Below, piece by piece: positions 26,315-28,114 of a DNA stretch of 64,000 bases. The position numbers and the translations under genes are program-made. The stretch is from Methylobacterium sp. PvR107 (GTDB lineage: Bacteria; Pseudomonadota; Alphaproteobacteria; Rhizobiales; Beijerinckiaceae), in the NCBI RefSeq assembly GCF_017833295.1, contig NZ_JAFIBW010000001.1:2298501-2362500 (forward strand), written 5' to 3'. Every line of letters begins with the position of its first letter. Positions within the stretch are counted from its first letter, which is position 1. Below the pieces are notes generated by a model. That model was not told the DNA's origin, did no database searches, and worked only from the letters and a program-made list of their open reading frames with translations.

Positions 26315-27430
26315 TCAGAACAGTGCCAGTTGCGCCCCCGGCTTGCGGAAGGCGTCGCGGTCCAGCGCCATCCGGCCGAAGGCGAAGCCGAGCCGCGTCC
26401 CCGCCAGCCGCACCCGCTGGCCGATCATCGCCGCGTAGGCGCCCTCGCCGCGGAAGCGATGGCCGAAGCGCGGATCGTTCTCGCGGCCGCCTCGGGCCTG
26501 CGTCAACAGCCCGAAGGTCCGGTCCTTCCGCTCGGGGTAATGCGCGGCGAACCAGTCGGCCACGAGGTCGGCGACCTCACCCGGCAGCCGGAGCAGCGCG
26601 TGGCCGATGCGGCTCGCGCCGTTCTCCCGGGCCCGGGCGAGGATCGTCTCGATCTCGGGATCCGTGAGCCCCGGGATGATCGGCGAGACATTGACCATCA
26701 CGGGCACACCCGCCGCGCTCAAGGCGCGCATTGCGGCCAGCCGCTTCTCCGGCCGCGGGGCGCGGGGATCGAGGCGTCGAGCGAGGCCCGGGTCGAGGGT
26801 CGGCAGCGACAGGGCGACCAGGATCAGGTTCTGCGCGGCCATCTCGGCCAGGATGTCGAGGTCTCGCAGGATGAGGTCGGATTTGGTGGTGATGCTGACC
26901 GGGTGCCGGGTCTCCCGCAGCACCTCCAAAACCGCGCGGGTGATGCGGTGCTCGCGCTCCAGCGGCTGGTAGGGATCCGTGGCCGTCCCGAGGGCAATCG
27001 TCTCGGGGCGATAGCCCGGTGCCGCAAGCTCCCGGGCGAGGAGGCGGGCGGCCTCGGGCTTGGTGAAGATCCGCGATTCGAAGTCGAGCCCCGGCGACAG
27101 GCCGAGCCAGGCGTGGGTCGGCCGCGCGTAGCAGTAGATGCAGCCGTGCTCGCAGCCCCGATAGGGATTGATCGACCGGTCGAACGGAACGTCGGGCGAC
27201 GTGTTGCGGGCGATGATGCGGGCCGTACGCTCCGGCGTGACCTGCGTGCGCAAGGGAGCCGGCTCGTCCGCCCCCCAGTCGGAATCGTAGAACAGCTCGC
27301 GCCGCGCCGCCTCGAAACGGCTCGTGGGATTGGCGGTGGCACCGCGCCCGCGCCGGGCGCTCTCGGGCGGCGTGCTGTGCCCGAGCCGGATTGCAGCGCC
27401 CTTGCCCGACCCACTCCCTGTCCGTGTCAT
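26315..27430 (-). CDS. Radical SAM protein, PA0069/SplB-like
   Basis: 371 residues. The iron-sulphur cluster motif CX3CX2C is visible as RGCEHGCIYCYARP near residue 100. The downstream VSITTKSDLILRDLDIL segment and two further beta/alpha repeats fit the PA0069 family, related to spore photoproduct lyase, with unknown substrate. It is basic at the N-terminus and cytosolic. The upstream end carries the parS site 15 bases before the ATG. Confidence 0.88.
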   Translation of the reverse strand: MTRTGSGSGKGAAIRLGHSTPPESARRGRGATANPTSRFEAARRELFYDSDWGADEPAPLRTQVTPERTARIIARNTSPDVPFDRSINPYRGCEHGCIYCYARPTHAWLGLSPGLDFESRIFTKPEAARLLARELAAPGYRPETIALGTATDPYQPLEREHRITRAVLEVLRETRHPVSITTKSDLILRDLDILAEMAAQNLILVALSLPTLDPGLARRLDPRAPRPEKRLAAMRALSAAGVPVMVNVSPIIPGLTDPEIETILARARENGASRIGHALLRLPGEVADLVADWFAAHYPERKDRTFGLLTQARGGRENDPRFGHRFRGEGAYAAMIGQRVRLAGTRLGFAFGRMALDRDAFRKPGAQLALF

Positions 27431-27445: not shown

Positions 27446-27461
27446 TGTTTCACGTGGAACA
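27446..27461. promoter_or_regulatory. parS: parS centromere-like ParB-binding site
   Basis: TGTTTCACGTGGAACA fits the chromosomal parS consensus TGTTNCACGTGNAACA at every specified base, and 14 of its 16 bases are palindromic. ParB binds such sites to organise and partition the origin region. It is in the intergenic gap upstream of the radical SAM gene. parA and parB are not in the window. I noticed no other full match, but the window was not searched computationally. Confidence 0.82.
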
Positions 27462-27595
27462 TAACGCGAACAGACTGGAAGGCGGCGCCTTATTTTCAGG
27501 CAAATCCCCGCGCGGCGCGTCGCACGGTCGCGCTGGCGCCTTCCGGAGGCCGATCAATAGTTTACGGCGGCGCAGAATCGTCTAAGGGCGCGCTC

Positions 27596-28114
27596 ATGCT
27601 CTCTGCGGTGACCTTCCTGGCCGACCCGGCCGCTCCCGATGCGATCGATCGCCTGGCCGACACGCTCAGCGTGCTGGTCTCGGGTGTCGCAGGAGGCCTG
27701 ATCGGCGACGCCGTGATCGTTACCGGAGGCAGCAGCGAGGCCGTGGCGGCCGTCGCGGAGGCGACGGGCGCGACGCTGGTCCTGCACCGGGACGGCAATC
27801 CCTACGCGGCGGGCGCAGCCGCGGCGCGTCGGGACTGGATCCTGTGCCTCGAGGCCGGGGACGTCCCGGCCGAGGGCTGGATCCGGACCCTCGACCGCTT
27901 CGTCGGCACCGCCCGGCCCGAGACCGGGCTCGGCCGGCTCCAGCGCCCCGCAGCCGGATGGGCCGCCCGCCTCGCCGGCCGGATCGAGATCGTGGCCGGC
28001 GCCCGGCAGGCCCGGGCCGGGGATGTCGTCCGGCGGGAATCCCTGCGCGCCGGGGCGGTGTTCGCGCCGCGCCTCAAGGTCCGCCCGCTGATCGCGCGGA
28101 TCGACCGGGCCTGA
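27596..28114 (+). CDS. Small glycosyltransferase-like protein
   Basis: 172 residues from ATG 27596. The first half resembles a truncated GT-A glycosyltransferase: AVTFLADP, SVLVSG, an Ala-rich helix and WILCLEAGDVPAEGWI, which takes the place of the usual Asp-rich donor motif. The length is well below the 230-300 residues of complete GT2 enzymes and no second catalytic Asp is obvious, so activity is doubtful. It is a conserved-looking small protein of unknown role between the parS site and the permease. Confidence 0.6.
   Translation: MLSAVTFLADPAAPDAIDRLADTLSVLVSGVAGGLIGDAVIVTGGSSEAVAAVAEATGATLVLHRDGNPYAAGAAAARRDWILCLEAGDVPAEGWIRTLDRFVGTARPETGLGRLQRPAAGWAARLAGRIEIVAGARQARAGDVVRRESLRAGAVFAPRLKVRPLIARIDRA

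Follow-up and report, generated by a model that had tools for sequence, protein, structure and literature searches.

The locus raises the question of whether a parS-like palindrome lying far from parB, in front of a radical SAM gene, is a genuine binding site of the chromosomal partition protein ParB, and what it might do there. The window, by which we mean the whole stretch of 64,000 nucleotides that was analysed, corresponds to bases 2,298,501-2,362,500 of a genome assembled as one contig of 6,358,934 bases. Four features are concerned:

27446..27461, strand (.), parS-like 16-mer TGTTTCACGTGGAACA (minus strand TGTTCCACGTGAAACA), by consensus match and conservation in relatives

27457..27471, minus strand, putative LexA (SOS) box GTTCGCGTTATGTTC of the form GTTCN7GTTC, by motif match and ortholog conservation

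26315..27430, minus strand, PA0069-family radical SAM gene (NF033668, 485.4 bits versus a cut-off of 360; Radical_SAM PF04055)

27596..28114, plus strand, divergent conserved neighbour of 172 aa, aligned in 28 of 29 relatives

The 16-mer TGTTTCACGTGGAACA shows no mismatch to the 16-bp parS palindrome TGTTNCACGTGNAACA, which bears out the first-pass annotation, where the sequence at 27446-27461 was said to fit the consensus at each specified base. It is the sole parS match in the window, even with 3 mismatches allowed; at this setting shuffled versions of the window gave a mean of 0.39 matches, and at least one match in 33 of 100 shuffles. Genome-wide, exact matches were found at 3 places versus 0.003 expected (none for the reversed-pattern control) and matches with at most one mismatch at 10 places versus 0.19 expected, the expected counts being computed from the base composition of 1.59 Mb of sampled sequence. 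The earlier opinion that a chance match is unlikely is in line with these counts. The class with two mismatches comprises 5 additional places, beside 6 for the reversed control at up to 2 mismatches, and resembles chance.

The sites with at most one mismatch are located at 2.326 (the window site), 2.642, 2.756, 2.793, 2.932, 3.234, 3.304, 3.386, 3.421 and 3.789 Mb. All ten surround parAB and the inferred oriC in an arc of some 1.5 Mb, 23% of the circle, and an empty arc as large as the remaining one has a P of 1.8e-5 for ten random points on a circle. A genome scan had been proposed beforehand, with unclustered scatter as the outcome that would speak against parS; the like sites cluster instead around parB and the inferred origin. 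The excess of exact and near-exact matches, together with this clustering, indicates that the window 16-mer belongs to a real chromosomal parS set. The genome has one ParB match (TIGR00180, over the cut-off), at 3.2317 Mb, in agreement, as far as parB is concerned, with the statement that the window holds no parAB. Beside parB are mnmG and a ParA-like gene, whose ParA matches are below the curated cut-offs. A class A beta-lactamase-like gene (L193:3603-4841) is present about 10 kb from parAB.

For the position of the origin, the polarity of GGGNAGGG, presumably the KOPS motif and also the most polar among the gapped 8-mers tried alongside, brackets the switch to about 3.2-3.9 Mb. The GC skew of 41 samples gave a signal too weak for origin placement. 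The hemE gene is a marker of oriC in alphaproteobacteria. Here, hemE is found at 3.280 Mb (tblastn with the E. coli protein, 49% over 147 aa), and after it come a stretch containing A-rich and DnaA-box-like words (TATCCACA, GTGGATAA) and a ppsR-family gene, an order that we take to be that of the Caulobacter oriC. We infer that the stretch adjacent to hemE is the oriC candidate. A stricter DnaA-box scan of 3.04-4.02 Mb gave one box only, not at the candidate, and a relaxed scan gave no cluster. As the scans revealed no dense DnaA-box cluster, it is gene order and polarity that support the candidate. The dnaA gene at 4.76 Mb (4764750-4766159) is separated from the hemE-linked oriC candidate by about 1.5 Mb and, being too distant, was dropped as an origin marker.

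The window site is the outermost of the set, 955 kb from the oriC candidate (30% of the arm) and 906 kb from parB, with the other sites within 640 kb. It is thus not situated within the few hundred kb of oriC that are typical of parS without being part of its definition. From the absence of parAB, the first-pass annotation had deduced either origin-proximal chromosome or a large replicon with its own partition system. The main chromosome stands, but the immediate vicinity of the origin does not, given the 955 and 906 kb; a plasmid or second replicon was rejected in view of the single 6.36 Mb contig and the single ParB match. Within the set, the 2.642 Mb site may be due to chance, since it lies inside an open reading frame and none of the sites in the four other clade genomes is orthologous to it.

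In an alignment with the solved ParB 6t1f, which we take to be the Caulobacter protein, the ParB of this genome retains the equivalents of R173 and G201, and its GERR motif is present. The numbering of these residues follows PMC7383237, in the portion available. The protein is predicted to be a parS-type ParB, encoded together with the ParA-like gene, and should load at the window palindrome. A Noc binding site is not what was found, the window site having a CACGTG core and the ParB keeping both contact residues.

The chromosomal parS suggested by the first-pass annotation is retained here, but its overlap with a LexA box had been overlooked. The final GTTC of the box (27457-27460) is inside the parS site, and the combined element is followed, after 15 bp, by the start codon of the radical SAM gene, whose strand reads GTTCGCGTTATGTTCCACGTGAAACA, 15 bp, ATG. 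The motif in this promoter region, GTTCN7GTTC, is the LexA box of Caulobacter (PMC12700426 and PMC9578287, in the parts consulted). In the genome, GTTCNNNNTWTGTTC matches at 13 places (control, 1). Frames after 6 of the 12 other boxes were scanned: radA and dnaB are over the cut-off, ImuA is weak (45.6 bits versus a cut-off of 150), one frame is glycosyltransferase-like below the cut-off and two are without an NCBIfam match. The same motif is thus present before SOS/repair genes of this genome (radA and dnaB, with ImuA as a weak case). Only the LexA box in the window, 1 of 13, carries the parS extension CACGTGAAACA. Directly upstream of this box, at 27484-27503, a GCCTGAAA...AGGCG element is present in most of the orthologs shown, possibly as a hairpin or part of the promoter.

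The divergent neighbour had been described as truncated and glycosyltransferase-like. No Pfam or NCBIfam match was obtained at E 0.001, and the alignment extends over 165-173 columns in 27 relatives and 110 in one, where it is ended by a contig edge. It was missed in one relative (L178), whose upstream flank has only 235 bp. Being aligned near full length in relatives, the gene does not look truncated.

To what extent is the combined element conserved? The radical SAM gene is present in 57 of the 59 same-genus genomes drawn, and the best 30 of the 57 orthologs with their flanks, own genome included, were compared. A LexA box precedes all 30 (26 strict GTTCN7GTTC and 4 GTTCN7GTTT). The parS part, with at most one mismatch, is present in 11 of them, namely 10 of 16 in the clade of the window and 1 of 14 others, the latter with one mismatch. 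The 6 clade orthologs without the site differ from parS by 4 or more mismatches, with hardly any intermediate stages, and this absence from 6 of the 16 closest orthologs indicates that the site is dispensable. On the protein tree, its presence and absence require 6 changes, 4 of them forced by well-supported branches; the simplest reading would be an early origin at or near the base of the clade and several losses. In the 10 site-bearing clade orthologs CACGTGAAACA has a pairwise identity of 96%, a figure inflated by the choice of rows by site. In the same rows, the 11-bp stretch directly preceding the box reaches 35% and the following 11 bp 50%, while the counterpart of CACGTGAAACA in the 6 clade orthologs without the site is at 31%. 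At the shared base, where LexA has C and the perfect palindrome T, T is found in 4 of 11 orthologs with parS and in 0 of 19 without (Fisher p 0.016 for the first 28 rows with relatedness ignored, the tree showing two lineages). The palindrome of the T-bearers, TGTTTCACGTGAAACA, is also found near parB; it is perfect in these orthologs except for one (L168), which has an additional parS mismatch at the last base. A scan of related loci with the radical SAM gene returned 80 loci, none with a site of 2 mismatches or fewer (best identity 77%, others 50-57%). The fused parS/LexA element is kept in a number of related species. With its exact consensus, its like sites clustered around parB and oriC and its conservation at the same place in relatives, the putative parS at 27446-27461 is very probably a chromosomal one.

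The set as a whole was compared in 13 near-complete same-genus genomes, own included. Sites with at most one mismatch number 10 in our genome, 9 in G002, 11 in G007, 11 in G037 and 9 in G061, and 1-3 in each of the other 8; the reversed control gave 0 in 12 genomes and 1 in G047. In all five high-count genomes the main ParB is about 2 kb from an exact site. By flank similarity, the 50 sites of these five clade genomes form 11 groups and 3 singletons, with 5 groups in 5/5 genomes, 4 in 4/5 and 2 in 3/5; the radical SAM site is found in 3/5. These groups show that the sites are tied to places and not random, and the clade carries an expanded, largely place-bound parS set. The empty-arc P is 9e-7 in G002, 5e-7 in G007, 5e-6 in G061 and 0.012 in G037. 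The distance from the radical SAM site to parB is 906 kb in our genome, 775 kb in G007 and 1.03 Mb in G121. A near-terminus parS in G037, with the radical SAM site 3.29 Mb from parB, was considered and rejected: its GGGNAGGG polarity changes near 3.9 Mb, whereas its parB is at 1.1 Mb. G037:C1 is rearranged or misassembled, and because of this disagreement its distances were set aside. The commonest one-mismatch site of the clade, TGTTTCACGGGAAACA on either strand (L006, L008, L010 and orthologs), is conserved next to the same genes, a lysA-like decarboxylase and an M20 peptidase. One of its halves is presumably Noc-like (NBS letters). A CCC half may be accepted by ParB.

The exact match, the clustering, the intact ParB with its contact residues, the LexA box and the conservation of the fused element are read from the sequences; binding, repression and competition are predicted on this basis. 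We consider it likely that the window site is a genuine distal chromosomal parS nested in a LexA operator, where ParB would compete with LexA and RNA polymerase, resulting in double repression of the radical SAM gene. The parS would have arisen inside the LexA box of this gene, sharing TGTT(C) with it. LexA at the putative box would repress the gene, while chromosomal ParB would bind the window site, load as a clamp and spread locally. As the GTTC is shared and the element is 15 bp before the start codon, ParB, LexA and RNA polymerase could hardly be bound together; the 16 bp cover a LexA half-site and probably extend over the start region of the promoter, which would make the three mutually exclusive. 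Upon damage, removal of LexA would leave the site open to ParB or RNA polymerase. Help in segregation from so distal a site is doubtful, since extra parS are disfavoured at mid-arm in Caulobacter (PMC5815017, in the sections available), and yet the site is kept in several species.

The same anatomy could also go with a different function. The site could be a neutral leftover, that is, a working ParB site that is easily reached from a LexA half-site by intergenic drift and that has no SOS role and little role in segregation. We see this as a possibility to be kept in mind rather than a likely one. It would accord with the repeated losses within the clade, with the outermost position of the window site and with the TGTT of the LexA box, which supplies 4 of the 14 fixed parS letters free. 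It is less easily reconciled with the little intermediate decay among the 16 clade orthologs, which have either at most one mismatch or (6 of them) at least 4, with a site kept while its flanks diverged, and with 4 of 11 having the parS letter at the base common to both motifs.

It seems quite improbable to us that the palindrome is no more than an SOS operator with an extension, or a site for some other regulator, and that it resembles parS by accident. Such a reading would account for a site placed exactly on the LexA box just before the gene, the box supplying the left parS half, but the extension is found on 1 of the 13 strong LexA boxes of the genome, and four relatives of two lineages have T in place of the LexA C, giving the TGTTTCACGTGAAACA that is also near parB. 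The recurrence of the fusion speaks in both directions. With at most one mismatch, the fused pattern was detected at 43 places, distributed over 28 of the 111 same-genus genomes, and the reversed control gave none; a mismatch is present at 9 of these places, in 4 cases within the GTTC half. Among the 30 places inspected with their surroundings, the radical SAM gene accounts for 14, the vicinity of yidD for 10 and the region upstream of parC for 4, the remaining 2 being single (L321, with its mismatch in GTTC, and L305 in G034). The parC sites (topoisomerase IV subunit A; L295, L296, L303 and L308, in four same-genus genomes) are in favour of an operator, as more than one fused site is then upstream of a gene. 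The name parC is based on TIGR01062 over the cut-off in one of the four and on similarity in the other three; the parS part has one mismatch in 2 of 4, and the site in G070 is 327 kb from parB. The yidD site argues the other way. It is past the end of yidD, and pdxA converges on it in the two relatives where the far side is named (L268, L287), so that its LexA-like box (GTTCN7GTTT) does not evidently belong to a promoter. In 4/4 genomes (L002, L261, L268, L287), the exact parS that follows yidD has GTTC at the LexA spacing.

Also against an extended operator, 12 of the 14 site groups of the five clade genomes are without GTTC at the LexA spacing, the other two groups having 7 sites with it. 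Two more offsets match 2 groups each (2 and 3 sites), and one offset gives 5 sites in the parB group. A claim of enrichment from the fusion alone was dropped because other offsets give comparable group counts; GTTC at the LexA spacing could be explained by seeding from LexA half-sites. Order-wide, a match without mismatch is present in 5 of 397 genomes; 2 belong to the 9 genomes of the genus and 3 to the 388 others. In two of the outside matches, of which one (L333) is near a parA-like frame, the spacer differs from those of the genus boxes, and the third (L334:1501-1525, in G408) has a strict LexA box and an exact parS core before a 347-aa frame. The fusion appears rare outside the genus, where one case may be real. 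Finally, a functionless chance match is extremely improbable, considering the 3 exact matches genome-wide for 0.003 expected and the fact that 10 of the 16 clade members, counting our own genome, have the site at the orthologous position.

Returning to the parS nested in a LexA operator, it is tempting, although we consider it unlikely, to extend this arrangement to genus-wide sharing of operators by ParB and LexA (radical SAM gene, parC and the LexA-like yidD-pdxA site). Damage would then expose distal parS sites, and ParB, and via it SMC, would load at a great distance from the origin; as long as cells are undamaged, the repair gene would be kept off by either protein. If true, the SOS response and chromosome segregation would be directly linked through shared ParB/LexA operators.

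An overlap of parS with a LexA box was not found in the titles and abstract openings listed for papers on ParB, parS, SOS, Methylobacterium and PA0069-family radical SAM proteins, among which few subscription journals are represented. A clade whose conserved parS-like sites reach distances of about 1 Mb from parB, and in which some are built on SOS boxes, makes the function of distal parS testable, as well as their effects on promoters and the sharing of binding sites between segregation and DNA-damage response. The parS of Caulobacter crescentus resembles the present ones by its 16-bp palindrome with a GTGAAA half, its ParABS system and its origin-side sites (PMC5815017, in the sections available). 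It differs in that its sites are gathered in a few kb at about 8 kb from ori, compared with about ten sites over 1.5 Mb here, and the window site is moreover on a LexA box and about 955 kb from the oriC candidate. At this distance it is outside the zones tested elsewhere, according to the same sections of PMC5815017, i.e. a tolerant zone of about 500 kb in Caulobacter and 650 kb in P. aeruginosa. At the intergenic parS3 and parS4 of P. aeruginosa, ParB represses the adjoining promoters (PMC5521831, as far as its available text goes), a precedent for ParB as a local repressor at promoter-region parS near stress-linked genes, as here. These two sites are near oriC, unlike the window site, and no LexA overlap is described for them in that text. 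Noc and its NBS represent a related protein family (PMC7383237, portion available), and the recurrent TGTTTCACGGGAAACA of the clade has one Noc-like half; unlike in the Noc/NBS pair, the contact residues of this ParB are of the parS type, and neither half of the window site is Noc-like. The alphaproteobacterial LexA operator, GTTCN7GTTC, is identical in motif to the box described here, and the Caulobacter box GTTCttgttatGTTC also has TTAT before its second half-site (PMC12700426 and PMC9578287, parts consulted). Unlike in the Caulobacter operator quoted there, the second half-site here doubles as the left half of a parS.
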